Origin: a virus
IMG/VR virus record: IMGVR_UViG_3300029914_000116
Coordinates: 1-27,040 of that record
DNA length: 27,040 bases
Strand: one strand, 5' to 3'
Below, piece by piece: positions 6,351-27,040 of this stretch. The notes below the pieces were generated by a model. That model was not told where the DNA came from. It made no database searches and saw only the letters and a program-made list of their open reading frames with translations. Numbering within the stretch: position 1 is the first letter of the stretch; every line of letters starts with the position of its first letter. The translations under genes were made by a program, and so were the position numbers.

Positions 6351-6555
6351 CAACGAAGCTGTGGCGATGGAGATACTGTCGCACGAGGACATGCTGGCCA
6401 TCGGGCGCTGGGAAGATGTCATCAAGGGACTGGCCAGCAGACGCTTGTGTGTGCGCGTTATGGACCAGTGGCACCGGATCACGCCGGCTGGGATCGTCGC
6501 ATTCGAGGCGCACGAGCGGGCGCAATACGCGCCTGTGATCGAGGGGGAGTTGTGA
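6340..6555 (+). CDS. Small hypothetical protein, possible winged-helix fold
   Basis: ATG 6340 with AGGAAGG about 6 bases upstream; overlaps the GcrA-like gene by 11 bases; 71 residues. Two helices are followed by a strand-like WHRITPAGIVAFEAHE segment, which resembles the wing end of small phage DNA-binding proteins (xLTPxGxxAxE). This is a pattern impression only. It ends in a TGATG junction with the next gene. Confidence 0.6.
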   Translation: MLTDNEAVAMEILSHEDMLAIGRWEDVIKGLASRRLCVRVMDQWHRITPAGIVAFEAHERAQYAPVIEGEL

Positions 6556-6773
6556 TGGCGCTGGCGATGCAGGACGTGTTCTCGTCCCACATCAACCAGA
6601 TCGGACACGACCCAGACACGGGGGAGTTGCACGTCGCCTGGGACAGCGGCAAGCGCTCGATCTACAGTGGCGTGCCGGCGGACGTGGCGCAGACGGTCAT
6701 GCGCTCATGGTCTGTAGGCAAGGCGCTGACGACCAAGGTGAAGGGTGGGCAGTATGAACACCGATACGCATGA
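6555..6773 (+). CDS. KTSC-domain protein
   Basis: ATG 6555 overlaps the previous stop (TGATG) and follows a GGGGGAG site; 72 residues. The order SSHINQIGHD, a strand of the form LHVAWDSG, YSGVP, and SWSVGKALTTKVKGGQYEHR matches the KTSC domain (named after its Lys-Thr-Ser-Cys-like positions), a roughly 60-residue domain found alone or fused to many nucleic-acid enzymes and common in phages. Its molecular role is not established. The next gene starts inside its last 20 bases. Confidence 0.8.
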   Translation: MALAMQDVFSSHINQIGHDPDTGELHVAWDSGKRSIYSGVPADVAQTVMRSWSVGKALTTKVKGGQYEHRYA

Positions 6774-7011
6774 CCATGCGGCGAGGTTCCGCGCGATTGC
6801 CGACAAGATCGACCTGAACGGCAGCGCGGACTTCGGCGGTGCCTACGTGATCGTCGGCCCCGAGGGCACGTCGATCGACCTTCTGATGCTGGACGGCAAA
6901 GCCAACCCGGCGGTGTTCTGGTCGACCGTGCAGACGCGCGTGCAGATCGTGCTCGCCGAAATCGCCGACGCGGAGCGGAGCGGTGGCATGTTGCAGGGGG
7001 TTAGGCGGTGA
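6754..7011 (+). CDS. Conserved phage protein of unknown function
   Basis: ATG 6754 with GAAGG at 6741-6745; a GTG at 6745 is also in frame but coincides with the Shine-Dalgarno. 85 residues. It has an N-terminal helix (HDHAARFRAIADKI), a strand pair around FGGAYVIVGPEG, and a C-terminal helix with FWSTVQTRVQIVLAEI. I recognise this general type as a small protein often found just upstream of phage terminase genes, without known function. It ends 3 bases before terL. Confidence 0.7.
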   Translation: MNTDTHDHAARFRAIADKIDLNGSADFGGAYVIVGPEGTSIDLLMLDGKANPAVFWSTVQTRVQIVLAEIADAERSGGMLQGVRR

Positions 7012-7014
7012 CCC

Positions 7015-8919
7015 GTGCCGTTTGATGGGGCTTGGACGCCGGAACATGCCGCTTCTGTCAAGGCGGCGTTCTACGAATTCCTAAACCACACGTGGGTCAA
7101 GTCCAAAGAAAAGGGCTGGATCATCCTTGGTGAAAATCTATATGGCGCCCAGACCACCGTCATAGAAGGGATATTCGACGGTCTGGGTAACGATATCCAC
7201 GACTTTAAGGTCCTGAAAAGCCGGCAGCTTGGCGTTTCAACCATTATCCGCGCGCTGATGGCATTTTGGACTGGGATATTCGACGTTACAGCCTCTCTGA
7301 TGTTTGACACATCGGCTCATTTGATGGAAGCCCGTCAAGAGCTAGTGGATATGATACAGAGGTTCCCGGCAAGCTACAATTTCCCGAAACTGATTGGAAA
7401 TAACCGGAACTTCCTGATCCTGGAGAACAAATCACGCATAAACCTGATAGCGGCCGGCGTCAAGGAAACCAAATCGTCTCAGACGCTCGGAACCGGCTCC
7501 GCTATATCAGTTTCGCACCGTTCCGAGTTGTGCAACTACGGCAATATCGTCGGCATGGAGACATTTCGCCATTCTTTGGCGAGGAAAAATCCAAACCGTT
7601 TGTTTGTCGATGAGAGCACGGCCAAGGGGCCGAATATTTGGCAAGAAATCTGGTATGAGGCGAAGGATGATCACCACGCAAAGTGCATTTTCTGCGGTTG
7701 GTGGTCGCATCCGGACCAGAAAATAGAGCAAGACGACCCCGATTTCCAGAAATACGGCATTCAACCGCTTTCGCCGCTCGAAAAGCAGAAGATACGGCAG
7801 GTTTACGAGCAATACGGCCACGAAATAACGGCCGAACAGCTTGCATGGATCAGGAAGGAGATGAATCCGACCGCTGATGCGGACGGTGACGCTGATCCTG
7901 ACTTCTCGGGCGACAATTCGCGGCTTGAACAGCAGCCTTGGACTGAGGAAGACGCGTTCCAGATGACGGGCGCGGTGTTCTTCGATCCCGAAGAACTGAC
8001 GAAGCAGATGAAGCTTCACGTCAGCCGCAAATACAAGACCTACCACTATACCGCCGGCATCGAGTTCAGCGACCTGCGTGTCTATCCTGCGCCCAACGCC
8101 AAGTCCGTGCAGCTCAAGGTGTGGGAGGAGCCGGTCGAGGATTCTGTCTACATTATCGCCACCGATGTTGCCTTCGGCCGCGCCGAGTTCAACAACCGGT
8201 CCTCGATCGAGGTGATGCGCGCCTACGCGGACGGGCTCGATCAGGTGGCCGAATACTGCTGGCCGCTGATCAACACCAAGCAATTGGCGTGGGTCATCGC
8301 CAGCCTGGAAGCGTGGTATGCCGGCGAGCGGTCGACTGTCTACCGGATTGTCGACATCAACGGCCCCGGCGAGGCCACGTTCCGGGAGTTGCAGGACTTG
8401 AAGCTTCAACTGCGGCACGGCTACTTCGGCTCGACGCTGACAGAGCGCGGCCTGCAGGACATCCAGCGCAACGTGCGGAATTACATCTACACCCGCACGG
8501 ACAGCATGGGACGCGGCCACGCGTGGCAGTTCAAGGCGCAGTCGCAGCTCAAGGTGGCGATCATGGAGCGCCTGCGCGACTTCGTGCAGAACGGCATGCT
8601 CCACATCCGATCGCAGGAGTCCTTGGATGAGATGCGGTGGATCACCCGCGAGGGCGACAAGATCGAGGCGCAGGGGACCAAGCAGGACGATCGGGTGTAT
8701 TCGCTTGCGATGGCGGTGCGTCACTGGGAAGAGAACGCGCGCCGTGCGCTGATCCAGGCCAAGCGGACTCGGGCGTTTGAAGAGGCGGCGCGGCGCATGA
8801 CGATCAAGGATCAGGTGACGTTGTATAATCAGAACCAGCTTGATAGCTTCATCAGCGGGCAGGTTGCGTCCCGGCGGCGTATGATGGCGGCGGCGCGGCG
8901 GCAGAGTTGGAGGGGTTGA
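7015..8919 (+). CDS. terL: Terminase large subunit (packaging ATPase and nuclease)
   Basis: GTG 7015 follows AGGCGG; 634 residues. The N-terminal ATPase has a deviant Walker A, KSRQLGVST (68-76), of the RQ-type seen in many terminases. Its Walker B region reads AISVSHRSELC, where SE replaces the usual DE. A CIFC pair (about 224-227) lies in the ATPase part. The C-terminal nuclease shows an Asp in IIATDVAFGR (D384) and QDDRVYSLAMAVRHW (D558/D559), the metal-binding acids of the RNase H-like nuclease. It cuts and pumps DNA into the prohead through the portal encoded two genes later. The first half is clearly AT-richer than the second (about 43% GC at 7381-7440 against about 67% at 8521-8580), suggesting a mosaic gene. 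No separate small terminase was recognised. Confidence 0.92.
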   Translation: MPFDGAWTPEHAASVKAAFYEFLNHTWVKSKEKGWIILGENLYGAQTTVIEGIFDGLGNDIHDFKVLKSRQLGVSTIIRALMAFWTGIFDVTASLMFDTSAHLMEARQELVDMIQRFPASYNFPKLIGNNRNFLILENKSRINLIAAGVKETKSSQTLGTGSAISVSHRSELCNYGNIVGMETFRHSLARKNPNRLFVDESTAKGPNIWQEIWYEAKDDHHAKCIFCGWWSHPDQKIEQDDPDFQKYGIQPLSPLEKQKIRQVYEQYGHEITAEQLAWIRKEMNPTADADGDADPDFSGDNSRLEQQPWTEEDAFQMTGAVFFDPEELTKQMKLHVSRKYKTYHYTAGIEFSDLRVYPAPNAKSVQLKVWEEPVEDSVYIIATDVAFGRAEFNNRSSIEVMRAYADGLDQVAEYCWPLINTKQLAWVIASLEAWYAGERSTVYRIVDINGPGEATFRELQDLKLQLRHGYFGSTLTERGLQDIQRNVRNYIYTRTDSMGRGHAWQFKAQSQLKVAIMERLRDFVQNGMLHIRSQESLDEMRWITREGDKIEAQGTKQDDRVYSLAMAVRHWEENARRALIQAKRTRAFEEAARRMTIKDQVTLYNQNQLDSFISGQVASRRRMMAAARRQSWRG

Positions 8920-9528: not shown

Positions 9529-11310
9529 ATGAGCGATAAAGCGAAAGTCCTAGACTTCCCGTCGAAAAAGTCCATGGCGTCGCGTCCCGACGCCTTCATG
9601 GAACTGCCGCAAGACAACAAGCTACTCGTCCGGCAGGTCATGGAGATCAACGAAATCTGCCGGTCGGATGTCGGCCAGCGCGCTGCCTATTATCGCCAGC
9701 TCAACATGATCGTGGAAAGCGGCAAGTCCGATGGGTCCCGATCGCTGATCAACCTGCTTTATAGCCTGATCGACCGGCTCGCGTCGCACCTGTTCTCGCC
9801 GACTGAAATCCGTTTCTCCATGGATTTCGAGAACGAATACCCGGAAGAAATCCTCAAGCGCGGCAACGTCGCGACCCGGCTCCTGGCGCGCTCATTCGAG
9901 CGGACGAACACCGACATCCTGTTCGCCCAGGGGGTGTTCGAGGCGCTGAAATACGGTTCATGCTTCCTGAAACAGTGGGTCACGCAGGACGGATCAGAGA
10001 AGCTTCCGACCTACCATTCCAGCCTCGTGATGCCATGGCAAATGGGGGTCTACAGGCCGGACACCAACTCCCTGGACGACCAGCCGGCGATGACCCAGAG
10101 CGTCACGCTGACGATGCCGGAAGTGTGGCGACGAATCTACCACATGCCGGACGCGCGGCAGTTGTTTGACCGGATCAAGCAGCATGCCGCGCCCGGCGCG
10201 ACGGACGTTGCGAACAGCTTTTTCCACCAGGTGCTGAACACCTCGCAGATCAACACCGGGGCCGGTGCGGCGTCGCGGCCGGTCCCCGGCGGCATCGTGC
10301 AACTGTCCACGGACCCGAACTATGGCGGCGTCGGCCCGTCCGGCGCGGCGCCGATAGCGGTGATGCACGAGACGTGGATGTGGGACGGCGACGATTACAC
10401 CACGATCCAGATCATCGAGCCTGACATCCTGATCGCGCCGCGGTGGAAGCGGTCCAACCTGCTGATATCGGGTCACCAGTGCGGTTTGCACCCGTTCACG
10501 TTGATCCAGGCCAACCCCACGTCGGGCAACCTGTGGGGGCGCAGCGAGATCGCCGACCTGATCAACCCGCAAGACTTCCTTGCCGAAACCGCGTCGGACA
10601 TTCGCCGGCTGTTCGGTCTGCAGGTCGACAAGCTCCTGGCGTTCTCAGGCGACGGGCTGACGGATGAGCTTTACGACCAGATGCGCCAGGCCGGGTATGC
10701 CAACCTCGGCCCGAGCGGAAGCGCCGTGGACCTGACGCCAAAGTTCCCGGCCGAGGCGTTACCGCTTCTGGAGAAGCTGATCCAGATCATTGAAATGATT
10801 AGCGGTTTTGACAACATGCTGTCGGGAAAGGGCGAGCCAGGCGTGCGCAGCGGCGTGCAGAGCAACCCAATGATGAAGGCGGCGGGTGCGCGTCTGAAGG
10901 ACCGGTCCTTGCTGATCGAGCGGCAGTGCGCCGCGGCGGGTGATCTGCGTTTGAGCATCATGGAGGCGAAGGACGGCCGAGCCTACTGGACCGATCCGAA
11001 GCACCCGAACGAGACGCAATTCCTTCTGGCCGACCTGCCGGAAGATCGGCGTGTGACGGTGGACGGCCACACCACGTCGCCGATCTTCGCCGACGATCAT
11101 CAGTCGCTCATCGTGGGCGGCCTGAAGCTGGGCATCATCGACCCCGAATCTGCCATCGAGATGCTGCCATTCCAGAATAGGGACATCATCCTGACGCGTC
11201 TGCGCGCCAAGGAAGAGAAGCAAGCGGCGCTGATGCAGCAGCTCCAGAAGCAGAACCCGGAGGAATACGCGAAAATCATCGAAAAACAGGCGTCGTCTAA
11301 GAGACGGTAG
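9529..11310 (+). CDS. Portal protein (head-tail connector)
   Basis: ATG 9529, 593 residues, no strong ribosome binding site. The call rests on size, position directly after terL and before scaffold and capsid, and sequence character: an N-terminal helical part with RSLINLLYSLIDRLASHLF, a stretch around GVFEALKYGSCFLKQWV, beta-rich middle with GWRSEI-like GRSEIADLINPQDF, a long helix around LPLLEKLIQIIEMISGFDN, and a charged helical C-terminus ending in KRR. These are typical of podovirus portals (T7 gp8-like or P22 gp1-like), which form the dodecameric DNA entry channel. Its stop codon lies inside an inverted repeat. Confidence 0.85.
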   Translation: MSDKAKVLDFPSKKSMASRPDAFMELPQDNKLLVRQVMEINEICRSDVGQRAAYYRQLNMIVESGKSDGSRSLINLLYSLIDRLASHLFSPTEIRFSMDFENEYPEEILKRGNVATRLLARSFERTNTDILFAQGVFEALKYGSCFLKQWVTQDGSEKLPTYHSSLVMPWQMGVYRPDTNSLDDQPAMTQSVTLTMPEVWRRIYHMPDARQLFDRIKQHAAPGATDVANSFFHQVLNTSQINTGAGAASRPVPGGIVQLSTDPNYGGVGPSGAAPIAVMHETWMWDGDDYTTIQIIEPDILIAPRWKRSNLLISGHQCGLHPFTLIQANPTSGNLWGRSEIADLINPQDFLAETASDIRRLFGLQVDKLLAFSGDGLTDELYDQMRQAGYANLGPSGSAVDLTPKFPAEALPLLEKLIQIIEMISGFDNMLSGKGEPGVRSGVQSNPMMKAAGARLKDRSLLIERQCAAAGDLRLSIMEAKDGRAYWTDPKHPNETQFLLADLPEDRRVTVDGHTTSPIFADDHQSLIVGGLKLGIIDPESAIEMLPFQNRDIILTRLRAKEEKQAALMQQLQKQNPEEYAKIIEKQASSKRR

Positions 11311-11319
11311 TTGACCGTC
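11303..11319 (+). other. Inverted repeat around the portal stop codon
   Basis: GACGGT (11303-11308) and ACCGTC (11314-11319) form a perfect 6-bp stem with a 5-base loop AGTTG. The portal stop codon TAG (11308-11310) sits at the stem-loop boundary. There is no T-run, so it is not a standard intrinsic terminator. Confidence 0.6.
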
Positions 11320-11323
11320 AAAG

Positions 11324-11342
11324 ATACGTCTGTTAGACGTAT
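11324..11342 (+). other. Perfect 8-bp inverted repeat (possible hairpin or operator)
   Basis: ATACGTCT (11324-11331), loop GTT, AGACGTAT (11335-11342). The arms match perfectly. It follows directly on the hairpin at the portal stop. No T-run follows, so it may be an RNA stability or processing element, or a dyad bound by a protein. Confidence 0.6.
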
Positions 11343-11346
11343 TCAA

Positions 11347-11421
11347 GCCGGGCGGGATACGGAGCGCTGTGTGGGGATAAGAGACCTCCCCTCTCTCCGC
11401 TTCACACAGCGTCCGCCCGGC
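11347..11421 (+). ncRNA. Putative structured RNA element: long two-part stem upstream of a small basic gene
   Basis: GCCGGGCGG (11347-11355) pairs with CCGCCCGGC (11413-11421), 9 of 9. After an asymmetric 9-base bulge, CGCTGTGTG (11365-11373) pairs with CACACAGCG (11403-11411), again 9 of 9. The apical part can also pair GGGGA (11373-11377) with TCCCC (11387-11391), or CGGAG (11360-11364) with CTCCG (11395-11399), so alternative folds exist. The loop is pyrimidine-rich (ACCTCCCCTCTCTCC) and could pair with the GGGGGG ribosome binding site just downstream. No open frame uses it. Either a cis-acting regulator of the gene at 11441, a transcript processing site or a small RNA; the role is inference, the pairing is seen. 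Confidence 0.5.
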
Positions 11422-11440
11422 GCATTCAGGGGGGTTAGAA

Positions 11441-11596
11441 ATGTCGGTCACGAAGAAAAAGGCGAGCAAAAGCAGCAGCAAGCCCATGGGCCGCCCAAAG
11501 GGTGGTTTGGACAGCAGGCTGAACAGCCCCAAGGCAATTCGCCGCCAGAGTAACAAGCGTCTGTCCGGGCTCCGTGCGCTGGCGATAGCGTTTTGA
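11441..11596 (+). CDS. Small Lys/Arg-rich protein
   Basis: ATG 11441 is preceded by AGGGGGG at about 11428-11434; 51 residues. The N-terminus is Lys/Ser-rich (KKKASKSSSK), then MGRPKGG, then an Arg-rich helix ending in LRALAIAF. The charge suggests nucleic-acid or acidic-surface binding; GRPKGG resembles an AT-hook core, but a single short match is weak. The next gene's TTG overlaps its stop (TTGA). Placement between portal and capsid genes fits a small head-module protein. Confidence 0.6.
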   Translation: MSVTKKKASKSSSKPMGRPKGGLDSRLNSPKAIRRQSNKRLSGLRALAIAF

Positions 11597-12022: not shown

Positions 12023-12727
12023 CTAGGCGGTCGGACCAATGGTCGAGTCATCCATAGTGGTCACCACGAGCGGTGGAATGCAAACAAACGCGTTCATCAT
12101 CGGGTAGAAAGCGTTCATCATCACGTCCACGCCGACGTTCAGCACCTGCGTTTCCCCCATGTCGGGAAACTGGATCACCACATCCTGCGTGATGGCGTCT
12201 TGCCGGCGCAAGAACTTCGCCCCTGACGGCGAAATCGCATACCCGACCGTCCCCCATGCCCGATATAGCTTCGAGGCATTCGCCGCGAGCCGGCAGTTCT
12301 GGTAGCGATCGATGTGCCGGCGCAGCTCGCCAAGCTCGCACTGCATGCCGCCCCAGGCGCCAGGGACCATATCAAACATCAGGAGCGCGTTGAAATTCCA
12401 TCCCCACAGGATGATGTCCCAGTCCTTGGGGAGCGATTCCAAGACCTTCCGGTGCGCGCCCATGAACGACAGATGCACGATCGCGTCGTCCTCAAAGATT
12501 GTCATCGGCCGGCCTGCCTCGATCACCTCATCCCAGAACGCCATGTGCGACAGGAGACACCCGAGCGCGCCGTCTGAATGCTTCAGCGACGGGTAACGTA
12601 AGCGGTCCACTGTTTGACCGTCGACCGCGGTCTGCACGACGCATGGGACATGCGGGTTGCGGGAATGGAATAGCTCCAGGCGATGGGGGGTCCGTTCCAG
12701 GCTGAGAACGCGCAGGTCTTCCATCAT
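12023..12727 (-). CDS. Glycosyltransferase family 25-like (LPS/surface glycan)
   Basis: On the reverse strand from ATG at 12727 (a second ATG follows directly) to TAG at 12023-12025; 234 residues. The ATG overlaps the stop of the HTH gene (ATGA), with AGGA about 9 bases upstream. The family signature is clear: GCLLSHMAFWDEVIEAG (about 56-72) followed by TIFEDDAIVH, with EDD at 79-81, the nucleotide-sugar/metal motif. GT25 enzymes typically add hexoses to lipooligosaccharide cores. A reverse-strand cargo gene in the head module looks like a moron that could change host surface glycans during lysogeny or infection. Family confident; acceptor and timing are inference. Confidence 0.82.
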   Translation of the reverse strand: MMEDLRVLSLERTPHRLELFHSRNPHVPCVVQTAVDGQTVDRLRYPSLKHSDGALGCLLSHMAFWDEVIEAGRPMTIFEDDAIVHLSFMGAHRKVLESLPKDWDIILWGWNFNALLMFDMVPGAWGGMQCELGELRRHIDRYQNCRLAANASKLYRAWGTVGYAISPSGAKFLRRQDAITQDVVIQFPDMGETQVLNVGVDVMMNAFYPMMNAFVCIPPLVVTTMDDSTIGPTA

Positions 12728-12921
12728 TCTATCACGTCCTGTGATGCCCATTCGGTGAATGCCTCGATCGGCAGGAGCCATTTGCGGCCGATCCGTCGAT
12801 GCGGCGGCGGGTTGGGGCCGCGCAGGCGGGTATAAAGCGTCGTCAACGACACCCCGACCATGGCCGCGCCCTGCTTCGGGCTGAGATATTTCGGGATGTC
12901 GATATCCAGCGGTTCGGCCAT
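12724..12921 (-). CDS. Excisionase/AlpA-like helix-turn-helix DNA-binding protein
   Basis: Reverse strand, ATG at 12921 (a GTG at 12924 directly precedes it and is also possible); 65 residues. YLSPKQGAAMVGVSLTTLY (12-30) is a MerR/excisionase-type helix-turn-helix, followed by a Pro-rich turn and the wing HRRIGRKWLLP, then an amphipathic helix. This matches the helix-turn-helix family 17 (excisionase-like) plan. It is coupled to the GT25 gene downstream (ATGA), so it may regulate that pair, or be a remnant of an integrase/excisionase module; no integrase is adjacent. No clear promoter was identified upstream. Confidence 0.8.
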   Translation of the reverse strand: MAEPLDIDIPKYLSPKQGAAMVGVSLTTLYTRLRGPNPPPHRRIGRKWLLPIEAFTEWASQDVIE

Positions 12922-13107
12922 CACACGCTTTTACCAACGCGATCAAAGCGCGCCTAGCGAAATAAGCGAACGCCGCCATTGCGCCGCGCGCGCGTGTAAG
13001 CGCTGACTGCGGCGCCCGGACTTAACTGTCTCCCGAGTCAGAAATGACCCGAGTGGCGGCGATAACGAGGAGCGTTCGGGCATCGTGTCACTATTCAGGA
13101 GATCGCT
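12922..13107. promoter_or_regulatory. Divergent intergenic region, probable regulatory DNA of the reverse cassette
   Basis: This gap separates divergent genes and must contain the start of the reverse transcript if that cassette has its own promoter. Visible structure: a tandem AGCGAA-ATA-AGCGAA at about 12955-12969, a GC-alternating run near 12985, and a CCCGAGT direct repeat at 13033-13055. I could not fit a convincing -35/-10 pair on either strand. Confidence 0.35.
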
Positions 13108-15521: not shown

Positions 15522-16661
15522 ATGAGTATCATTATTTCGGGTCCGGGCGTTGGCCTTCCGTATCCGATGTCCCTGTATCCGGGGAATCTGAACAACGCGC
15601 CGCAGAACACCCCGGCCAACTTCGTCGGCATCTCGCCGGGCGATGAGATCGTTATCCCGAGCACGGGCACGAACGGCTGGATCGTCGATACCGGTGCGGT
15701 GTGCGTCCTGCAGTGGCTCGACCCGATCACCGGCATTTGGCGCACGGACCAGCGCCCTGGCAGCGGCGCGCAGATTGTTACAAGCGACGGTTTCACGCGG
15801 CGGATCGCGAACCTGACAGGGTGCCCGGTTGGTGCGGCGGTGACCGGCGGCGGTTCCGGCTACGCGCAGGCGACGGCGACGATCACCCCGAACATCGGCG
15901 GCTCCACCTGGCAGGCCATCGTCGGCGGGGCGCTGTCGATTTCCACGATCGCGGCGACCGGTGCGAATTACACGATGGCGCCTCTGGTCCATATCCCGGT
16001 TCCGCCGAACCCCGGCATCCAGGCGACGGCTTACGCGGTCATCACCTCGGGCACGGTGTCGTCGGTATCGCTGCAGGACTTCGGTGCCGGCTACATCTCC
16101 GCGCCTACCGCGCTGATCATCCCTAACCCGGCCGATCCGAACTACGGCACGATCACCACGGCGTCGATCACGCTCGTGCTGAACGCGGCGCAGTCCACGG
16201 CGATCACGGGCGCGCTGCTCACGAACAACGGCGCCCCGATCACGTCGAGCCTCACCGGCCTGACACTGACGGCGACCGGTGGCGCAGGGTCCGGTGCCAC
16301 GCTGGCGGCTCTCGTCATGCAGTGCATCACCGCGGCGACGGTTACGGCAGGCGGCGGCGGCTGGGGCAACGCGGCGGAACCCCCCACCGTGACCACGGCC
16401 GGCGGATACTACAACGGCGCGGCCTCGGTGAACCCGAACCCGATGGTGGAACTGACCAAGTTCCGCGCCAGGCCGGGCGTTATCACCGTCACCGCATCGA
16501 GTGCCGGTCTGATCTCGGCTCCCGTCGTGCAGGACCCGGGTCTGTTTGTGTCCACGCCGAGCGCTGTGATTATCCCTGGCGGTGCGCTGCCGACCACGCT
16601 GGCGTCGGTCACGCTTACACTGGGCGGATTCCAGGATACCATACTGCTTCAGCCTCTCTGA
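15522..16661 (+). CDS. Virion protein with repeated GGxGY beta modules
   Basis: ATG 15522 with AAGGAG at about 15509; 379 residues. The first 100 residues form a beta-type domain (GISPGDEIVIPSTGTNGWIVD). From residue 108 on, short repeats of the type GGGSGYAQA, TGANYTMAPLV, FGAGYISAPTAL and AGGYYNGAA recur, joined by Ala/Thr/Ile strands, consistent with stacked beta-sandwich or solenoid modules. Directly after the capsid gene, a decoration or head-fibre role is plausible. The same module occurs in the adaptor at 17434 and the nozzle protein at 21043. Function is inferred from position only. Confidence 0.7.
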   Translation: MSIIISGPGVGLPYPMSLYPGNLNNAPQNTPANFVGISPGDEIVIPSTGTNGWIVDTGAVCVLQWLDPITGIWRTDQRPGSGAQIVTSDGFTRRIANLTGCPVGAAVTGGGSGYAQATATITPNIGGSTWQAIVGGALSISTIAATGANYTMAPLVHIPVPPNPGIQATAYAVITSGTVSSVSLQDFGAGYISAPTALIIPNPADPNYGTITTASITLVLNAAQSTAITGALLTNNGAPITSSLTGLTLTATGGAGSGATLAALVMQCITAATVTAGGGGWGNAAEPPTVTTAGGYYNGAASVNPNPMVELTKFRARPGVITVTASSAGLISAPVVQDPGLFVSTPSAVIIPGGALPTTLASVTLTLGGFQDTILLQPL

Positions 16662-16687
16662 GTTGCGGGGCCGGGAGGTGGTGACGC

Positions 16688-17434
16688 ATGCTGACAACCT
16701 ACCTCACGGCCACGCAGAGTCTGCTCCAAAACCCGGCGGCCCCCATCCCGCTTTACGCGACCACCGCGCTTACCACGTATATCAACAGCGCCCGCAATCA
16801 GCTTGCGGGCGAAGCGAAGTGCATCCGCTATATGGGAACGCTGGCGCTGACCGCCGGAACCCAGGTCTACCCTTACAGCGCAATCGCTTTAGCCGGGGGG
16901 ACTGCGGCCGGTATAGCTGGTGTGCTGGATGTCGAGACGCTTTGGTATCAAGTCGGCGTGGGGCAGAAATGGATACGTCCTCGCCCCTGGCCGTGGTTCT
17001 CTCTTTTTGAGCTGAACAACCCGGTCCCTGTCGGCGGCCCGCCGAAGGTCTGGGCGCAATATGGGCAGGGCGCGAGCGCGCAGGCATCCCCCCTGCCGGT
17101 CGGCGGTGGCTCGCTGTATGTTTCTCCGCCGCCTGATTTCGCCTATGCGGTGAACGTGGATTGCGTGTGCTACCCGATCGCGCTGGTGAACGACACGACG
17201 GCGGAAGCGCTGCCGTTCCTGTGGACGGACGCAATACCCTACTTCGCGGCGTATCTGGCTCTGCTGAGCGCACAGACCGGCATTCGGACGCAGGAAGCGC
17301 TTGGAATGTATAAGCTCTATAGCGAGTTCGTGGACCGGGCGCGCAAGGCTTCCACGCCGATGGTGCTACCGTCGATCAACCCGCAAGTCCCGAACCCGAC
17401 CCGGCAGAACCAACTTGGCGTCGGCGGCGGATAA
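16688..17434 (+). CDS. Head-tail adaptor 1 (gp4/gp11-like)
   Basis: ATG 16688 with GGGAGG at about 16672; 248 residues. N-terminal helices (TTYLTATQSLLQ, TALTTYINSARNQLAGEAKCIR), then GTQVYPYS, a beta part, and a C-terminal helix pair (LPFLWTDAIPYFAAYLALL, MYKLYSEFVDRARKAS). This is the plan of podovirus tail tubular A / P22 gp4-type adaptors that bind under the portal. It is clearly a paralogue of the next gene: both share CIR, YP(Y/F)S, a C-C near QC, EALP..WTD, and the final helix. It ends in a TAATG junction with that gene. Confidence 0.75.
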   Translation: MLTTYLTATQSLLQNPAAPIPLYATTALTTYINSARNQLAGEAKCIRYMGTLALTAGTQVYPYSAIALAGGTAAGIAGVLDVETLWYQVGVGQKWIRPRPWPWFSLFELNNPVPVGGPPKVWAQYGQGASAQASPLPVGGGSLYVSPPPDFAYAVNVDCVCYPIALVNDTTAEALPFLWTDAIPYFAAYLALLSAQTGIRTQEALGMYKLYSEFVDRARKASTPMVLPSINPQVPNPTRQNQLGVGGG

Positions 17435-18366
17435 TGCCCGCCACGCTCAACACTTACCTCAAAAGCGTCCAGCGCTTCTGCCGTGACAGCCGGCAGGAGC
17501 TGTTGGACCCGGCCGACCTGATTGACTACATCAACCAGGGCCGGCGCGAGGTCGCGATGCGCGCGCAGTGCATCCGGGTGCTCCCTCCGATCAGCGGCGC
17601 GATCACCACGATCCAGGTGACGAACGGTGGCTCGCAATACACCAACCCCCAGGTGGTCATCACCCCTCCCGACAGCCCGACCGGCTTCCTGCCGTTCCCG
17701 AACGGCAAGCAGGCCATTGGCACGGCCACGGCGATCGGCGGCGTCATCGTCAACGTGGCGGTGAACTATGGCGGCAGCGGTTATTTCGCGCCGCAAGTCA
17801 CGATCAACGACCCAACGGGCGCGGGATTTACTGCGACCGTCAACACGTCTCTGAACAACACGCTGAACGAAGGCCAGGAAGCTTACCCATTTTCCGGGAT
17901 TGATCTATCGTATTTCCCTGGCGTGGCGTCGGTCTATTTTGTCCGTAGTGCGTCGATCATATACAGCAATTACAGATATTCGCTACCGATGTATGCCTTC
18001 TCGACTTACCAGTCGTTGATACGGCAGTATGTTGCATCGCAATATCAGTATGTCCCTACGTTTTGTTCGCAGTTTGGCCAGGGTGTGAATGGCACGCTGT
18101 TCATGTATCCGGTGCCGTCGCAGAGTTATCAGTTGGAGTTCGACTGCCAGTGCTTGCCCCAAGACCTGATTGATAATCAGAGCGTCGAGGCGCTGCCGGA
18201 CCCGTGGACTGATTGCGTTGGATATTGGGCGGCGGCTCTGGCCTATCTGGAACTACAGAACGGCAACGCTGCGCGCATGTATTTCGACTTGTTTGACAAA
18301 AGGGTATCCGCGATTTCTGCTCATGTCCGCCCCGGAAGAATCTCAAACCCCTACGGGCGCTGGTGA
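17434..18366 (+). CDS. Head-tail adaptor 2, paralogue with inserted beta module
   Basis: ATG 17434 shares a base with the previous stop (TAATG); 310 residues. The flanks align with adaptor 1: LNTYLKSVQRF, DLIDYINQGRREVAMRAQCIR, then, after about 80 extra residues, EAYPFSGIDL, FDCQCLPQDL, EALPDPWTD and a final helix. The extra segment (about residues 55-140) has GGSQYTNP and GGSGYFAP motifs, the same type as in the genes at 15522 and 21043. It is GC-rich (about 70% at 17641-17700) whereas the following adaptor part is about 45% GC at 17941-18000, supporting later insertion. Probably both adaptors form rings between portal and nozzle. The 3' end overlaps a small ORF starting at 18323. Confidence 0.75.
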   Translation: MPATLNTYLKSVQRFCRDSRQELLDPADLIDYINQGRREVAMRAQCIRVLPPISGAITTIQVTNGGSQYTNPQVVITPPDSPTGFLPFPNGKQAIGTATAIGGVIVNVAVNYGGSGYFAPQVTINDPTGAGFTATVNTSLNNTLNEGQEAYPFSGIDLSYFPGVASVYFVRSASIIYSNYRYSLPMYAFSTYQSLIRQYVASQYQYVPTFCSQFGQGVNGTLFMYPVPSQSYQLEFDCQCLPQDLIDNQSVEALPDPWTDCVGYWAAALAYLELQNGNAARMYFDLFDKRVSAISAHVRPGRISNPYGRW

Positions 18367-18430
18367 TTATGCGCTTACTTCTGATCAATTCACCGGCTCT
18401 GCGTGGGCCACGGTAACGGCGGTCAACTGA
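18323..18430 (+). CDS. Small ORF bridging adaptor and tailspike genes (35 aa)
   Basis: ATG 18323, inside the end of adaptor 2 in the +1 frame, to TGA 18428-18430, which overlaps the tailspike ATG (TGATG). The peptide is protein-like (MSAPEESQTPTGAG, ALTSDQFTGSAW). No ribosome binding site is seen, so it could be translated by re-initiation or as a frameshift extension of adaptor 2. The perfect coupling to the next gene favours real translation. Confidence 0.45.
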   Translation: MSAPEESQTPTGAGDYALTSDQFTGSAWATVTAVN

Positions 18431-21042
18431 TGAGCGGCAGCAGCATCCAGCAGAGCGGCAGCGTCACCCCCGGCCATCCGGCGGTCTGGGTGCAGGATGG
18501 CGTCTGCCAGGACGCCGGGCCAGCGACATCGGGCATTCTCGGCGAACTGGGTCTTCAGAACAACGGCGGGATCGCATTCGGGATCAACAACGTCGCCCCG
18601 AACAACCCCAACGGCTACACGCAGTTCGGCATATCGGTCGCCCAGACGGGCACCATCACGCTGTATGCGGAGAGCTACAACGGCGCCCCGCCTGCGGTGC
18701 TCAACTTCAACATCAATGGCTTGGTCTATCCATTTGCGCTATCGGGCAACGTCACCGGCCCGTCGTCTTCGGTCAATGGCGATCTCGTATCGTTCTCCGG
18801 GACCACGGGCGTTCTGATCGCCGATGCCGGGATCAATGTGACCGGTATCACCATTTCGGTGGCGACGATCGCGGCATTGCGGGCCGCCATGACAAGCAGC
18901 TTGCCGCAACAGCAGGTCTTTGTTCTGGGATACGCCGCGTTCCTGGATGGCGGGCAAGGCGCTTTCTACGTCGATGCAAGCGATGTGGTTTCGGCCGACA
19001 ACGGCGGGACAATCATCGTGGACGTGTCCGGGCGCCGCTGGTATCGCCAGACGGGCGGCGGGTCGTGGTCTGTCAAATGGTTCGGCGCCAAGGGCGACGG
19101 GAGCACCGTCGACACGGCGGCGTTCACCAACGCCATCGGCGCGCTTTTGACTGCTGGCGCCGGGGTGCTGTTCTGCCCGCCGGGGACCTATATCGTCTCA
19201 GCGATCTCCGTGCCCAATGGCATCACCATCCAGGGCGCGCGGGCAGCGACGACGCTGAAGCTGGCACCAGGCGCGGAAACCGACGTGATCGTGTCGCAAG
19301 GGGCGTGGGCGCAACTGAATCGCCGCATCACTGCGACGGTATCCAGTGGCGCGACATCGGTCACCGTGAGCAACGTCACCGGCATTTCGGTCGGTGACAC
19401 CATGATTTCGCAAGCCAATAACGGCATTTGGTATAACTATTCGGTCGGCTCGATCAGTGGTGCAACGATCGGAATCGCGGGGTCTTTGACCTTGCCGGGT
19501 GGCGCGACGCTCGCGGTCGGCGCCCCGGCACTGGACGCCACGACGATCTATACGGCCACGATGACGATCCGTGACCTCACCATCGATGGAAATGTGTCAA
19601 ATCAGCCGGCGGGGCCATCCAACATCTGCCTGTCCCAGACCGCGGCGCCCGGCTCGCTCTCAATCAATGGCGGACTCGCGATCGGCGGGACTGCTTACCT
19701 CTCCTATGCGAGCAATCAGTATCTCATCATCACCACGACGGCGGCCAACACCGCCACGGTGACGATCACCGGGACGCGAATCCAAGGAAACTACACGTCA
19801 AGCGGCCTGTCGGAGACCGTTACTCTCGGCGCGGCTGGCGCGATCACCACGAATAACCAGTATGTCACCGTGACCTCGGTCGTCGCGAATGCTGCGATCA
19901 CCGGGCAGATCAGCGTTGGCGCGGCGGACGGAACGGCGTCCTGCAACGGGATTACCGTCATCATGGCCAACCCCATCATTGAAGATGTGTATATACAGAA
20001 CGCCCGGGGTTGGGGCGTGCGAATGGGCTTCACGACCGGGTTTAATGACATCATCCCCTACATGACGAATGTCGCGGTGAATTCCGCGTGGGGCTTGGCC
20101 TGGATCAATGCAAACGATTGCCGGTTCAGCCGGTTGATCGGCAACTTTCTGAACCCGCTCGGCATCTGGTGGGACCGGGAGTCGTCAGGATCGATGCTCG
20201 ACCAGGCGCATGTATCCGGCGCCTACACCGGCACGGTCGCGGTGCAGCCAGCCTGGGGCATGGTGGTCGATGGCGACACCGTCAACTGCACGGATGTGAA
20301 TATCGAGGAATCGGTCCTCGCCCAAGTGCTTGTCCGCGCGAACAATTTCCAGTTCAACGGCGGGAACGTCTTTTACACCGGGGCAAAACCGAACGACACC
20401 ACCGAGTCGGCCGGGTTCCAGATCGGCGACACGACCAACGGGTTTACCGGGATCGAAGCATACGACATCGTGACCCGGGCAAAAAACTGTTCGGCCGGCG
20501 CGATCGACTTCGTCAGCGACGGAGGTTATGGGCGCGTCCGGCTCACGGGGTATGATCAGCAGTCGACGGTGGCCAGCAATGCGCTGAGTGGCGCCACCAG
20601 TATCACGCTCAACGGGGACATCGCCGCGTTCGGGGCCGGAAACAACGTCGTTATCCAACTCAACGGGCCTTCCTACCAGCAGGTCAATCTGACCGCCTAC
20701 AATCAGACCACGGGTGTCGCCACGATCTCGCCGGCTCTGAGCGGAGCGGCCAATGGCGGGAACAAGGTCTATCGGGGTCGCTCGATCACCGGCACGCTGG
20801 CAACCGGGGCGGCGCAATCGGACATCCAGATCAACATGATCGGGACATTCCCGCAATCCTTCATCCAGGCCATCCCGAACGTCTATACCGTGGCGTTTCT
20901 GCCGTCCGCGTCGTTTGCCGTGGCAGGGGCGCGGGCCTTCGTCAGTGACGCCACCGCGACCACATTCGGCTCAAACGTGAGTGGTGGCGGCTCCAACTTC
21001 GTGCCGGTGTTTTTCACCGGCACCACATGGGTCATCGGATAA
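18430..21042 (+). CDS. Tailspike, pectate-lyase-like beta-helix receptor-binding protein
   Basis: ATG 18430, coupled to the previous stop; the frame is open to 18403 but no better start exists. 870 residues. Residues 1-140 are a beta-rich N-terminal part probably attaching the spike to the virion. VKWFGAKGDGSTVDTAAF at about 215 followed by FCPPGTYIVS is the hallmark of the pectate-lyase-like beta-helix family found in tailspikes and capsular depolymerases. The body is a long Thr/Gly/Ala/Ile beta-helix with NGGNVFY-type turns. The C-terminus (FLPSASFAVAGARAFVSDA, TTFGSNVSGGGSN, VPVFFTGTTWVIG) is a phage fibre/spike terminal motif of common type. It likely recognises, and may cleave, a surface polysaccharide of the host. 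Catalytic residues cannot be assigned by eye. Confidence 0.87.
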   Translation: MSGSSIQQSGSVTPGHPAVWVQDGVCQDAGPATSGILGELGLQNNGGIAFGINNVAPNNPNGYTQFGISVAQTGTITLYAESYNGAPPAVLNFNINGLVYPFALSGNVTGPSSSVNGDLVSFSGTTGVLIADAGINVTGITISVATIAALRAAMTSSLPQQQVFVLGYAAFLDGGQGAFYVDASDVVSADNGGTIIVDVSGRRWYRQTGGGSWSVKWFGAKGDGSTVDTAAFTNAIGALLTAGAGVLFCPPGTYIVSAISVPNGITIQGARAATTLKLAPGAETDVIVSQGAWAQLNRRITATVSSGATSVTVSNVTGISVGDTMISQANNGIWYNYSVGSISGATIGIAGSLTLPGGATLAVGAPALDATTIYTATMTIRDLTIDGNVSNQPAGPSNICLSQTAAPGSLSINGGLAIGGTAYLSYASNQYLIITTTAANTATVTITGTRIQGNYTSSGLSETVTLGAAGAITTNNQYVTVTSVVANAAITGQISVGAADGTASCNGITVIMANPIIEDVYIQNARGWGVRMGFTTGFNDIIPYMTNVAVNSAWGLAWINANDCRFSRLIGNFLNPLGIWWDRESSGSMLDQAHVSGAYTGTVAVQPAWGMVVDGDTVNCTDVNIEESVLAQVLVRANNFQFNGGNVFYTGAKPNDTTESAGFQIGDTTNGFTGIEAYDIVTRAKNCSAGAIDFVSDGGYGRVRLTGYDQQSTVASNALSGATSITLNGDIAAFGAGNNVVIQLNGPSYQQVNLTAYNQTTGVATISPALSGAANGGNKVYRGRSITGTLATGAAQSDIQINMIGTFPQSFIQAIPNVYTVAFLPSASFAVAGARAFVSDATATTFGSNVSGGGSNFVPVFFTGTTWVIG

Positions 21043-23043
21043 GTGTCCGATAGCCAGTCAGGGGGCGGCGGGCAAGGCGGGCCTCCGTTCCAGCCATTAG
21101 CGTTCGAGGGCTTCACTACCCTGAACACTGACGGCTCTCGGCCGGGGATCAAGGATCAGGAGATGTATTGGTGCGACGGCTTTATGCCGGTCGGCGCCTC
21201 GCAGCTTCGGACAATTCCCGACGTGGGGGCGCCAATCTTTGCAGTCGCCTCGCCGAAAACGATCGTGTTCTTCGCCTTTGCGAACATAGGGTCGGACCCT
21301 TACGCCGTTGTGTTTATCTCGGATGGCAGCGTGGAGTTGGTCAATACACAGACCAATGTTGCAAAACAGATCATGATCCCGGGCACGCTGATTAACCCGC
21401 TGCCCACGAATACCGGGATCGCGCAGTGGGGCAACCAGTTCATCATCATCGTGACGGAACTGGTCAACGGCTATTGGATAACGGACGGTCTGATCCTTTA
21501 CTCGGCCGGGGGGATCGGGCCGACAGCCAACGATCTGACCTCGGGCGGCACGGGTTACACCAGCGCGCCGGGGCTCGCGGCCTTCGGCGGCTCCGGGTCC
21601 GGCATCACCTTGACGCCGCTCTTCACCCCGGGCGACAACGTCTATGAGCTGGTCGTTGGCAATCCGGGGACCGGCTACAAAGCCGGCGACTTCGTCCAGT
21701 TGCAGTTCAGCGGCGGCGGGACCGACACGGGCGGCATCCTGACGCCGAACGTCGTGAACGGCTCGATTGCGTCGATCAACATCGTGAACGGCGGGACCGG
21801 CTACAAGATATCGCCGCTGACGCTGTCGTTTGCCGGCGGTGAGGGCGGCGGCGCGGCGGCGACGGCCACCGTGACGGCAGGGGTCATCACGGGGACCTCC
21901 GTCACGACCGGCGGGGCCTTCTACAACAACCAAGCTGCTGTCATCATCCCGCCAGGGTTCAACAACGCCGCGTCCGCCACGCTCGCGCTCATGCCGTTCG
22001 GCCTGAACGGATCGGCGGTGGAGACCTATCAGAACCGGGTCTGGGTGTCCTCGGTGAGCGATGTGCCGGTGACGGAATCACTGATCACGTTCAGCGCGCC
22101 GGAGAGCTACACGGACTTCAGCGCGGCGGACGGAGGTGGCTCGTTCAGCTCCGCCGACAGCTTCCAGAAGGTTAGCTACATACAGCCGAGACAAACGAAC
22201 GGCTTTCTGTATCTCGTGTCGGATTCGTCCATTAACTACATAGGCGGCGTGACCACGTCCGGCGAGCCGCCCACAACCTCGTTCAGCAACCAGAACGCCG
22301 ACCCGGAAGTGGGCACGCCGTGGGCGACCACGATCAGCACCATCGGATCGAACCTCGTGTTCGCCAACGCGTGGGGCGCGCATGTCAGCTACGGCGGGCA
22401 GGTCACGAAGATCAGCTCGCAATTGGACGGCTTCTACAACACCGTGCCGATCAATCCGGCTTTTACGCCATCGGCCGCCAAGCACATTCTCTACGGCAAG
22501 GCCGTCTGGGTTCTGCTCTACCCCGTGATAGATCAATACACGTTCGCGCCGGTGAACAAGCTTCTGATGTGGGATCGCGAGAAAAAGGCATGGTGGACAA
22601 GCCAGCAGAGCGTCAGCCTGACGTTCATTGCGGGGCAGGAGTTCAACTCGGTTCTGTCGGCATATGGGACAGACGGCACGTCCCTCTATCCGCTGTTCGC
22701 GGTGCCGGGGGATGGCTTCACGAAGGTGGTTCAGTCCAAGATGTGGACCGCGCCGGGCGGATATCTGACGGCAAAGTCATCGGGTCGGGCGTGGCTCCTG
22801 GCGCAGTATGACAGCCTCACGTCGCCGGCGCTGACGTTCCTCGTGGATACGGACGCGGGGCCGCTGTTCTCGCAGAGCATCACGTTCGCAGGACCCGCGA
22901 CAATGGAGGGGTTTTATGTTACGCCGCCGACCGCAACGGGACAGGTCGGGGTCATGCTCGGGATGACGATCGCAACGAACGCCGCGGACGTGACGCTGAT
23001 CTCGGCGTCTATCGATTCCGTGCCGGTCGGGTATCGCGGCTAA
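21043..23043 (+). CDS. Tail nozzle protein (T7 gp12/P22 gp10-like) with GGxGY insert
   Basis: GTG 21043, directly after the tailspike stop; 666 residues. The N-terminus (NTDGSRPGIKDQEMYWCDGFMP, split here by position) and strands such as PYAVVFISDGSVELVNT resemble beta-propeller tail tubular B proteins. Residues about 160-305 are four repeats centred on GGTGYTSAP, PGTGYKAG, GGTGYKISP and GGAFYNNQA, the beta module also found at 15522 and 17434. After them the propeller theme resumes: VETYQNRVWVSSVSD, FSAPESYTDFSAADGG, QTNGFLYLVSDSSINYIGG, GSNLVFANAWGAHVSYGG. It forms the tail nozzle beneath the adaptors. TAATG junction with the next gene. Confidence 0.75.
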   Translation: MSDSQSGGGGQGGPPFQPLAFEGFTTLNTDGSRPGIKDQEMYWCDGFMPVGASQLRTIPDVGAPIFAVASPKTIVFFAFANIGSDPYAVVFISDGSVELVNTQTNVAKQIMIPGTLINPLPTNTGIAQWGNQFIIIVTELVNGYWITDGLILYSAGGIGPTANDLTSGGTGYTSAPGLAAFGGSGSGITLTPLFTPGDNVYELVVGNPGTGYKAGDFVQLQFSGGGTDTGGILTPNVVNGSIASINIVNGGTGYKISPLTLSFAGGEGGGAAATATVTAGVITGTSVTTGGAFYNNQAAVIIPPGFNNAASATLALMPFGLNGSAVETYQNRVWVSSVSDVPVTESLITFSAPESYTDFSAADGGGSFSSADSFQKVSYIQPRQTNGFLYLVSDSSINYIGGVTTSGEPPTTSFSNQNADPEVGTPWATTISTIGSNLVFANAWGAHVSYGGQVTKISSQLDGFYNTVPINPAFTPSAAKHILYGKAVWVLLYPVIDQYTFAPVNKLLMWDREKKAWWTSQQSVSLTFIAGQEFNSVLSAYGTDGTSLYPLFAVPGDGFTKVVQSKMWTAPGGYLTAKSSGRAWLLAQYDSLTSPALTFLVDTDAGPLFSQSITFAGPATMEGFYVTPPTATGQVGVMLGMTIATNAADVTLISASIDSVPVGYRG

Positions 23044-24228: not shown

Positions 24229-25311
24229 GTGACCGAGGCGGGGCCGCCGTTTATCGTCTACGCGCTGCCCCGCTCTCGGACTTATTGGCTATCCCGCTTC
24301 CTCTCCACCGAAGGGTGGCACTGCGGGCACGATGAGATTCGGCACGTGCGGAGCCTGGAGGATGTGAAGTCCTGGCTCGCACAGCCGTTCACCGGCACCG
24401 TCGAGACCGCCGCCGCGCCGTTCTGGCGGCTGGTCGAAACCTATTGTCCCGACATCCGCACTGTCGTCGTTCGCCGGCCTGTTGCAGATGTGGTGGAGAG
24501 CGCCATCCGCCTTGGCGTTGGGATCGACCGCGCGAAGCTCACGAAGGGCATGACCCTTCTGGACCACAAACTTGACCAGATCGAGGCGCGGGCGCGGAAC
24601 GTCATTTCCGTCAGGTTCTCCGAACTAGGCGACTATTCACAGTCCGGTCTTGCTTGTGGGCGCGTGTTCCAGCACTGCCTCGGTCAGAGGATGAACACAA
24701 GATATTGGATAGAAAAGGATAAAGAAAATCTCCAGATAGATATGCTGCAATGCCTGAGATACTTCCAGGCGTTCAAACCTCAGATGGACAAAGCAGCAAG
24801 TATAGCAAAGCATAAAATGTTGCGCGACATGGCGCGCCACGCCCCGGTCGAGAAAGACGGCGTGACCTTCCAGCAAGAGGATTTCGATACCTTTTTCCGG
24901 GATTCTGAATCTCTGATGCGGGAACATTGCGCGCAGATCGGGGAACGCCCGGACAGCTTCCGTTCGAAGAACGTTCCCTTGGCGCGGCGGCTTTACGAGA
25001 AAGGTGTGATGCAGATCACAACGGCCCGCTGCAACGGCCGGATGTTCGGCTACCTGATGACGCTCTATGGACCTTCGATGGAGAGCGAGACCGAGACCGA
25101 GGCGCTGAACCTCGCGTTCTTCGCGTCGCCGGACATCCCGCTTCTCGGCCTGAAACTGAAACAGGCGTGCGCGGCCGCGCTACGGGAAAAGGGTGTGAAC
25201 CGGGTTTTCTCCCGCACGGGCCGCGCCGGGCCGCGCATGGGCGTTCTCGATCGTCGGATGGGTGCGGAGGAGATCGGCATCATGTATAAGCTGGAGTTGG
25301 AGGCGGAATGA
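24229..25311 (+). CDS. Sulfotransferase-like / GNAT-like fusion protein
   Basis: GTG 24229, 6 bases after the previous stop, no clear ribosome binding site; 360 residues. The N-terminus has a sulfotransferase-type P-loop YALPRSRTYWLSRFL (11-25), where PRSxT is the 5'-phosphosulfate (PAPS) loop, and VVVRRPVADVVESA (about 79-92), the 3'-phosphate motif. The C-terminal 110 residues look like a GNAT fold: QITTARCNGRMFGYLMTLYG, LGLKLKQACAAALREKGVN, then MGVLDRRMGAEEIG. The two are joined by an AT-rich stretch (about 24690-24820). I recognise this type as a phage protein found with ejection genes. Whether it is an active enzyme or a structural internal protein is unknown. Confidence 0.75.
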   Translation: MTEAGPPFIVYALPRSRTYWLSRFLSTEGWHCGHDEIRHVRSLEDVKSWLAQPFTGTVETAAAPFWRLVETYCPDIRTVVVRRPVADVVESAIRLGVGIDRAKLTKGMTLLDHKLDQIEARARNVISVRFSELGDYSQSGLACGRVFQHCLGQRMNTRYWIEKDKENLQIDMLQCLRYFQAFKPQMDKAASIAKHKMLRDMARHAPVEKDGVTFQQEDFDTFFRDSESLMREHCAQIGERPDSFRSKNVPLARRLYEKGVMQITTARCNGRMFGYLMTLYGPSMESETETEALNLAFFASPDIPLLGLKLKQACAAALREKGVNRVFSRTGRAGPRMGVLDRRMGAEEIGIMYKLELEAE

Positions 25312-25312
25312 C

Positions 25313-26482
25313 ATGGGCTTGGCAGCAGCGGGCGCGTCGCTTTTTGGAGTAGCAGACGCTGGTCTTGCGGCCGGTGCTGCTGAGGGTGCCGCCGACTTGG
25401 GTGGCTTGTCAGCTCTCTGGGCTGCCCCGACAGAAGCGGCGCTTGCAGCAAACGGGATTGGCGATGTGGCAGCCGGCGCGGCTGGACTGGCTGGCGCAGG
25501 GGACGCACTCGGAGCGGTCGGCGCAGGCGCGGCTGGTGCAGCCGACGCACTTGGTGTCGGCGCAGGCACCACGGCAGCCGCCGGGGCGGCGGACGTAGGC
25601 GCTGGTGCCGGGGCATTGGCGGCGCCGATTGGCACGACCCCGCTCGCCGCCGCCGGTCCGGCCGCGGCATCAATCGCGGCTCCGGTCGGCGCGGCTCCTG
25701 TTGATCTGACATCCGCGGCCGCGGGCGTCGGCGCCGGTGGCGCTGGTGCTGCGCCGACAGACGCGTTGACGCTGGCGAGTTCCACGGTCCCGGATGCCGG
25801 GGCCGCTGCGGGGGCTTCGCCTGCTGCCGCAGCAGCGAACGGGATTGGCGCCCCGGTAACGGGCGCCGGCACCATCGGCAACTCGGCCTGGGAAACGCCG
25901 GCAGCGGCGGGGGCCGCGGGCAACAGCGGGGGCGGAGGGATCGGGAGCTTTCTCGGTTCGGCCGGCAGCGCGCTGCAAGCGCACCCGCTACAATCGCTTG
26001 GGGTCGGCGTGGCGGGCCTCGGCCTGGCGAAAGACCTGTTCGCCGATCAGGCGCCCAAGGGCACGAACGCGCTGAACAGCCTGGCGGCCAATTCCGCCTC
26101 GCAGGGCCAAATTCTGCAATCCTACCTGGAGACGGGCACCCTGCCGCCCGCGATCCAGGCGTCGGTCAATGCCGCGACGCAGGCTGGCATCTCCGCGATC
26201 AAATCGAAATACGCCGGTATGGGCGTGGCAGCGGGGTCTTCCGGCGAGGTGCAGGACATCGCCTCCCTCCAGCAGCAGGCCGTCTATCAGGGCGCGACGC
26301 TCGCGGATCAGCTTCTCCAGCAGGGCCTTAGCGAAACGCAGCTTAGCTCCTCGATTTATCAGAGCCTTATCCAGAACCAGACGGCGATGGACGGCCAGAC
26401 GACGCAGGCGATCGGTGGCTTGTCGTCGGCGCTCGCCGGTGGGATCAGGCTGGGTAATAGCGGCGTGACGGTTCAGCAGTAA
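25313..26482 (+). CDS. Ala/Gly-rich internal virion (ejection) protein
   Basis: ATG 25313 with GGAGG upstream at about 25299; 389 residues. Residues 1-230 are almost entirely Ala, Gly, Val, Pro and Leu, consistent with a flexible or membrane-interacting segment. Residues 230-389 are an ordinary helical domain (NALNSLAANSASQGQILQ, GISAIKSKYAGMGVAAG, DIASLQQQAVYQGATLAD, LSSALAGG) typical of short-tailed phage ejection proteins that form a channel through the cell envelope. TAATG junction with the transglycosylase gene. The high GC (over 70% in the low-complexity part) also opens a long antisense frame, which is not a gene. Confidence 0.72.
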   Translation: MGLAAAGASLFGVADAGLAAGAAEGAADLGGLSALWAAPTEAALAANGIGDVAAGAAGLAGAGDALGAVGAGAAGAADALGVGAGTTAAAGAADVGAGAGALAAPIGTTPLAAAGPAAASIAAPVGAAPVDLTSAAAGVGAGGAGAAPTDALTLASSTVPDAGAAAGASPAAAAANGIGAPVTGAGTIGNSAWETPAAAGAAGNSGGGGIGSFLGSAGSALQAHPLQSLGVGVAGLGLAKDLFADQAPKGTNALNSLAANSASQGQILQSYLETGTLPPAIQASVNAATQAGISAIKSKYAGMGVAAGSSGEVQDIASLQQQAVYQGATLADQLLQQGLSETQLSSSIYQSLIQNQTAMDGQTTQAIGGLSSALAGGIRLGNSGVTVQQ

Positions 26483-27040
26483 TGTCAGGCAGCACGACCC
26501 CCGATCCGTTTGCGCAGGCGGTATCCGGGACACCGGTCCCGCCATGGATACTGGCCGGCCTGGTGAGGACCGAATCGGGCGGTAATCCGAACGCGCGTAA
26601 CGACCAAAGCGGCGCATTCGGCCTCGGTGGTTTCCTGCCATCGACCGCTTCGCAGCCAGGCTTCGGGATGCAGCCGTTGCCGGCCGGTGCCAACAACGAC
26701 CAGCAACTGAAATTTGCGGCCGACTACCTGTCGGCGCGCGGAAAAGACCTCGGCCTGAAGCCAGAGGATTGGCAAGACCCGACCAAGGCAGCGGCGGCGC
26801 TGATCGCCTATCATGGGCCGCAGAAAGACGCGAACGGCATCGACGGCGTCACCTATGCCATGAAGGCGCTCGGCCTTGACCCGCTCACCGCCTCGTCGGC
26901 GTTCGGCACATACCAGACCATGACCGCCCAGACGGTGAACGACATCCGCGCGGCGGGTGCTGAGAAGGCCAAGGCGCAGGGGCCGATCTACGATCAGATG
27001 ATGGCCGACGTGGCGGCCGACAAAGCGCAGTTCAACAAGG
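26482..27040 (+). CDS. Internal virion protein with lytic transglycosylase domain (partial)
   Basis: ATG 26482 (TAATG), open to the last base of the window, at least 186 residues with the C-terminus missing. ILAGLVRTESGGNPNARND (23-41) carries the catalytic Glu (E31 in TESGG) of the lysozyme-like/transglycosylase family, followed by GAFGLGGFLPSTA, where GLGGFLPSTA takes the place of the usual GLMQLMPxTA, and a later AAALIAYHGP matching the AYNaGP motif. The domain degrades peptidoglycan locally during DNA ejection, as in T7 gp16. The long remaining part probably forms the ejection channel but is outside the window. Confidence 0.82.
   Translation, partial: MSGSTTPDPFAQAVSGTPVPPWILAGLVRTESGGNPNARNDQSGAFGLGGFLPSTASQPGFGMQPLPAGANNDQQLKFAADYLSARGKDLGLKPEDWQDPTKAAAALIAYHGPQKDANGIDGVTYAMKALGLDPLTASSAFGTYQTMTAQTVNDIRAAGAEKAKAQGPIYDQMMADVAADKAQFNK

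Follow-up and report, generated by a model that had tools for sequence, protein, structure and literature searches.

An ancient GGxGY beta module shared by three virion proteins of an uncultured short-tailed phage, probably an insertable structural brick

How does one beta module come to lie in three otherwise different virion proteins of a single short-tailed phage, and what might it do there? The question is raised by the IMG/VR virus record IMGVR_UViG_3300029914_000116, a sequence of 27,040 bases that was analyzed as a whole (the window) and belongs to an uncultured short-tailed phage. Its gene set includes a major capsid protein, a 379-aa virion protein (P0001), two adaptors, a tailspike and a nozzle. 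An original prediction made from the letters alone had placed repeats of the form GGxGY in P0001, adaptor 2 and the nozzle, and all three sets of repeats are present close to where they had been placed. The tailspike-like protein (18403..21042, + strand) is encoded between adaptor 2 and the nozzle, and HMM and profile searches detected no GGxGY module in it. Other features of the record include a short tandem repeat at its start (1-190) encoding Arg-Leu runs, a glycosyltransferase family 25 gene on the opposite (-) strand between the portal and capsid genes (12023-12979, Pfam E 1.7e-14), and an SLT transglycosylase domain (26482-27039, Pfam E 3e-7) that is truncated by the record end. Among the late virion genes, a 360-aa protein without a Pfam match (24229-25311) gives the impression of a sulfotransferase-like start (VYALPRSRTYWLSRFL).

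The gene for P0001 (15522..16661, + strand) lies directly 3' of that for the major capsid protein, and its product is laid out as an N-terminal domain (residues 1-100) followed by about six module units. The module segment spans residues 103-300 (15828-16421), with unit 1 at residues 103-134 (GGGSGY; 15828..15923, +), unit 2 at residues 136-175 (TGANY; 15927..16046, +), unit 3 at residues 177-218 (FGAGY; 16050..16175, +) and a degenerate unit 4 at residues 227-265 (16200..16316, +). Two more degenerate units are suggested by the repeating strand pattern of residues 266-379 (16317..16658, +), a C-terminal part whose resemblance to the module is weak (hhalign 25.8%, E 7e-4). P0001 is the weakest of the three carriers: when the first nozzle HMM was used, the copy in this genome fell short of the E 0.01 threshold. 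Given that P0001 alone matches weakly, its membership draws on the family profile, the alignment for which spans the full length of the protein with the repeats included, and on the predicted structure. The AlphaFold model (mean pLDDT 84.4) has a P22 gp10-like (nozzle) protein as its top BFVD match (E 4e-12), followed lower down by cyanophage structural proteins, baseplate wedges and tail fibres, and P0001 has no Pfam match at E<=1. At one other locus (L067:8542-9120), a small proline-rich protein encoded 5' of the capsid gene has one module pair at its C-terminal end, an arrangement seen at no other locus.

Adaptor 2 (17434..18366, + strand) matches Pfam SU10_adaptor (PF24175) with an E of 9.5e-13 and 49.5 bits, compared with a curated cut-off of 27, and the best stretch of the match begins directly after the insert, at adaptor 2 residue 143 and profile position 47. 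The insert comprises residues 52-142 (17587..17859, +) and holds one block of two units (residues 55-85 and 103-139). Adaptor 1 (16688..17434, +) is related to adaptor 2, and an HMM made from nozzle units only found the module in none of its 114 orthologues. This genome has a single adaptor 1, and about two dozen loci (L016, L018, L004, L011, L031 and others) have two to four copies of it, arranged in tandem before adaptor 2 in several of these loci.

The nozzle protein (21043..23043, + strand) is a predicted seven-bladed propeller. Its AlphaFold model (mean pLDDT 83.3) matches the SU10 nozzle 7z4b with a Foldseek E of 2.5e-13 and also matches the nozzles of T7, P22 and cyanophage A4, whereas Pfam gave no match for the nozzles at E<=1. 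Strand counting on the model (DSSP strings) puts the insert, residues 156-320 (21508..22002, +), between blades 2 and 3, the blade order being taken from such secondary-structure strings and from published descriptions. Its four units (residues 156-196, 200-239, 240-279 and 280-318) constitute two blocks.

That the three segments are one homologous beta module, as had been predicted, agrees with profile-profile comparison. With family alignments built from IMG/VR relatives, hhalign gave 97.6% (E 5e-12) for the nozzle and adaptor 2 segments, 95.7% (E 1e-8) for the nozzle and P0001 segments, and 95.0% (E 4e-8) for the adaptor 2 and P0001 segments. The non-module parts of the same three proteins showed no mutual profile match. 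The nozzle-unit HMM was applied to the 17,142 ORFs of 236 loci; one contig's loci can recur, and sequences with identical C-termini were dropped before counting. At E<1e-3 it found the module in 83/94 adaptor-2 proteins, a count for which two or more units above 6 bits were not required, and in 37/93 P0001 proteins. Low-scoring adaptor-2 proteins, when read individually, still contained a degenerate insert, and the only adaptor 2 that is devoid of a module insert is that of the distant phage MW202753. As judged from these sequences, adaptor 2 carries the module in all relatives within the clade. The MW202753 adaptor (L071:8463-9311) has a different insert at about the module's place, which by eye resembles a small carbohydrate-binding domain and for which Pfam returned no family of that kind.

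At the nozzle, the same HMM found the module in 66/88 proteins, and in module-free orthologues the two flanks are joined directly (WDGTTFY..PG to MPTGI.GT..ETY). Insert length was measured by means of flanking HMMs in 74 nozzles below 80% host identity. There was no insert in 16, an insert of 69-72 aa in four, 149-171 aa in 16, 225-272 aa in 36 and 307 aa in one, and these separate clusters indicate steps of two units. Based on the length steps and on isolated pairs, what is inherited as a block appears to be two GGxGY units together rather than a single unit. A parity test of alternating unit types, in which unit positions were noisy, left pairing unsupported, with 105/324 of the same parity against 128 expected.

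On a tree of the non-module part of the nozzle, the presence of the module requires five changes, compared with at least 16 when labels are shuffled. In the outgroup MW202753 this nozzle site is occupied by about four units, and therefore the sequences point to a nozzle module that is probably ancestral and has been lost several times. About one lineage in five does without the insert, indicating that it is not essential for ejection in the clade. Presence of the module in the nozzle showed no association with whether a further gene separates adaptor 2 from the nozzle (Fisher p 0.58). The nozzle of one phage nested in a module-free clade (L113) holds one pair. In the nozzle at L112:5368-7566, one more of the 74, the standard site is empty and about four units are located in an earlier propeller loop. 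The MW202753 nozzle (L071:9314-11302) is a baseplate wedge initiator in GenBank, a label that is probably due to the shared module.

In the models of both P0001 and the nozzle, each unit has the same long-short-long strand pattern. Sequence searching led to one relative of solved structure, Dpo31, the tailspike of phage Carin-1. The nozzle-trained HMM gives its residues ~446-520 a score of 24.5 bits, whereas 1000 shuffles reach no more than 9.3; the match to the full nozzle profile is modest (E 5e-4) and of high composition bias. The matching segment falls inside D3* (434-536; PDB 28lx), an inserted domain of two GGxGY units that the authors describe as having an Ig-like fold (PMC13317679). 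The match to D3* makes an Ig-like fold likely for the module, but the Foldseek search of the P0001 model against PDB gave no confident match (best E 0.01). Dpo31 differs from the proteins described here in that the host is a trimeric depolymerase spike. No Ig-like family model in Pfam matched P0001 or the nozzles, and a single-unit profile compared with solved structures returned weak antibody and BurrH repeat matches that were judged to be chance. BACON repeats of crAss-like phage tail proteins resemble the module in being tandem beta domains subject to duplication and transfer (PMC6949934), but the GGxGY module has no BACON family match in Pfam and is a different sequence family.

What, then, could such a module do in a head-region protein, an adaptor and a nozzle? 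Charged residues make up 1-5% of the modules versus 10-17% of the host parts, Gly, Thr, Ser, Ala and Val are abundant in the units, and the conserved positions are Gly, Tyr and aliphatic. Composition and conservation are thus more in keeping with a structural brick than with an enzyme or a specific binding site. We consider it probable that the GGxGY segments are an ancient virion domain of paired units that acts as an insertable, near-uncharged structural brick. The domain would be a pair of ~40-residue three-strand units, the pair of ~70-90 aa corresponding to the size of an Ig-like domain. The closest known parallel in position and working is SU10 gp17, whose tail tip is built of four Ig-like nozzle domains that lie between blades 2 and 3 and change their arrangement during ejection (PMC9509320). 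The two nozzles share a platform, a seven-bladed propeller and tandem beta domains between blades 2 and 3. They differ in that the domains here are GGxGY unit pairs that number from 0 to 4 blocks among relatives and, in one phage, occupy another loop. By analogy with SU10, the one to four bricks between blades 2 and 3 probably make up a blunt tail tip, whose length and packing they would determine, and they may rearrange upon ejection. In adaptor 2 the one brick would lie at the start of the region that docks long tail fibres in the SU10 and T7 adaptors, and would probably project from the neck at the adaptor ring near the fibre dock, an exposure suggested by secondary-structure strings and published descriptions. 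In P0001 about six units would form the bulk of a head-region protein.

The main alternative, to which we give a clearly lower probability, is a glycan- or surface-binding domain, in which case the copies on head, neck and tail tip would be many weak putative attachment points for host polysaccharide. The same block is found in tailspikes, including the depolymerase spike Dpo31, and in tail fibres and baseplate proteins, all of which would suit binding, and the 936 lactococcal phages decorate several virion proteins of one phage with related bricks, there carbohydrate-binding modules (PMC6669499). Two of those modules bound host cells in assays. For GGxGY, neither Pfam nor NCBIfam gave a carbohydrate-binding family match, charged residues are almost absent from the module, conservation is confined to Gly, Tyr and aliphatic positions, nozzle modules have been lost in several lineages, and the activity of Dpo31 is assigned to its central module D3 (PMC13317679), all of which argue against binding.

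The strong composition bias of all three segments also raises the concern that their likeness reflects convergence of Gly/Thr/Val-rich low-complexity beta sequence and not homology. We regard this as very improbable, given that the segment profiles score 50-70 against 19.0 for the best column-shuffled control of the same composition, and that the predicted strand pattern and structure matches agree. In addition, the matches of the nozzle-trained HMM at E<0.01 among the 17,142 ORFs are nearly confined to the three families, with only three other ORFs, two of which come from cyanophage records that had been fetched because they bear the module.

The weakest account, one that we hardly credit for this phage, is recent spread through duplication within its genome, as the original prediction had proposed: three proteins of one genome do bear the module, and blocks 62% identical in the cement and sheath of an Acetobacteraceae prophage suggest that similar spread may occur elsewhere, but 177/180 sampled units find their best match in the same protein of another phage and 0/180 find it in their own genome, the three DNA segments have no mutual nucleotide similarity beyond short chance matches, and adaptor 2 and P0001 bear the module throughout the clade. 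Units group by protein and by position. The unit matches and the absence of nucleotide similarity lead us to reject duplication within this genome; by sequence comparison, the module is an ancient shared domain. On the original prediction's own terms, segments present in all orthologues as a normal part of each family would speak against it; this is the case for adaptor 2 and P0001 across the clade, but not for the nozzle, where the module is polymorphic.

How far does the module extend beyond these phages? It matches many PHROG families, among them tail fibre, baseplate wedge, head closure, virion structural and head decoration proteins, whereas a module-free nozzle has 0 PHROG matches. By profile, the same repeat occurs in cyanophage baseplate wedge, fibre and structural proteins (several families, e.g. 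phrog_701, 708, 5342, 19630 and 460); these belong to other phages and differ in being very large and in carrying long arrays. Neither Pfam nor NCBIfam contains a model for the GGxGY repeat, and a search of the literature for the motif string found nothing relevant. A tblastn search of phage records with a long module array found nothing, probably because low-complexity filtering masks the array. Shared beta domains on virion proteins are already known; this recurrent one is without a Pfam or NCBIfam model, and it can mislead annotation, since PHROG families with different functional names match it and a relative's nozzle has received a baseplate label. Tentatively, we suggest an undescribed phage-wide structural family, a two-unit cassette that would move among head, neck, sheath, spike and tail-tip proteins and whose copy number would set the length or geometry of the podovirus nozzle tip. 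The nozzles, in which a single site holds between 0 and 4 blocks, constitute a natural length series for the role of the tail tip in genome delivery.

Finally, we surveyed 150 genomes sampled from the bacterial family of one Acetobacteraceae MAG, and the module was present in 11/150. Of the module proteins that were read, leaving aside a P0001 relative, one has four clear units and the rest have two, one of these adding two very weak unit matches. The proteins that carry it include pectin-lyase tailspikes, a DUF3383 tail sheath, a structural cement protein (PF22758/PF23982), a tail-assembly protein, a phrog_427 protein and a beta-lactamase-family protein that is minor tail protein-like. More recent spread between virion proteins is plausible in these unrelated prophages. 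In one of them (L251), a cement protein (6260-7105) and a sheath protein (10170-11558) each have one two-unit block, the two blocks sharing 62% protein identity, which makes this prophage a second example of a phage with the module in more than one virion protein.
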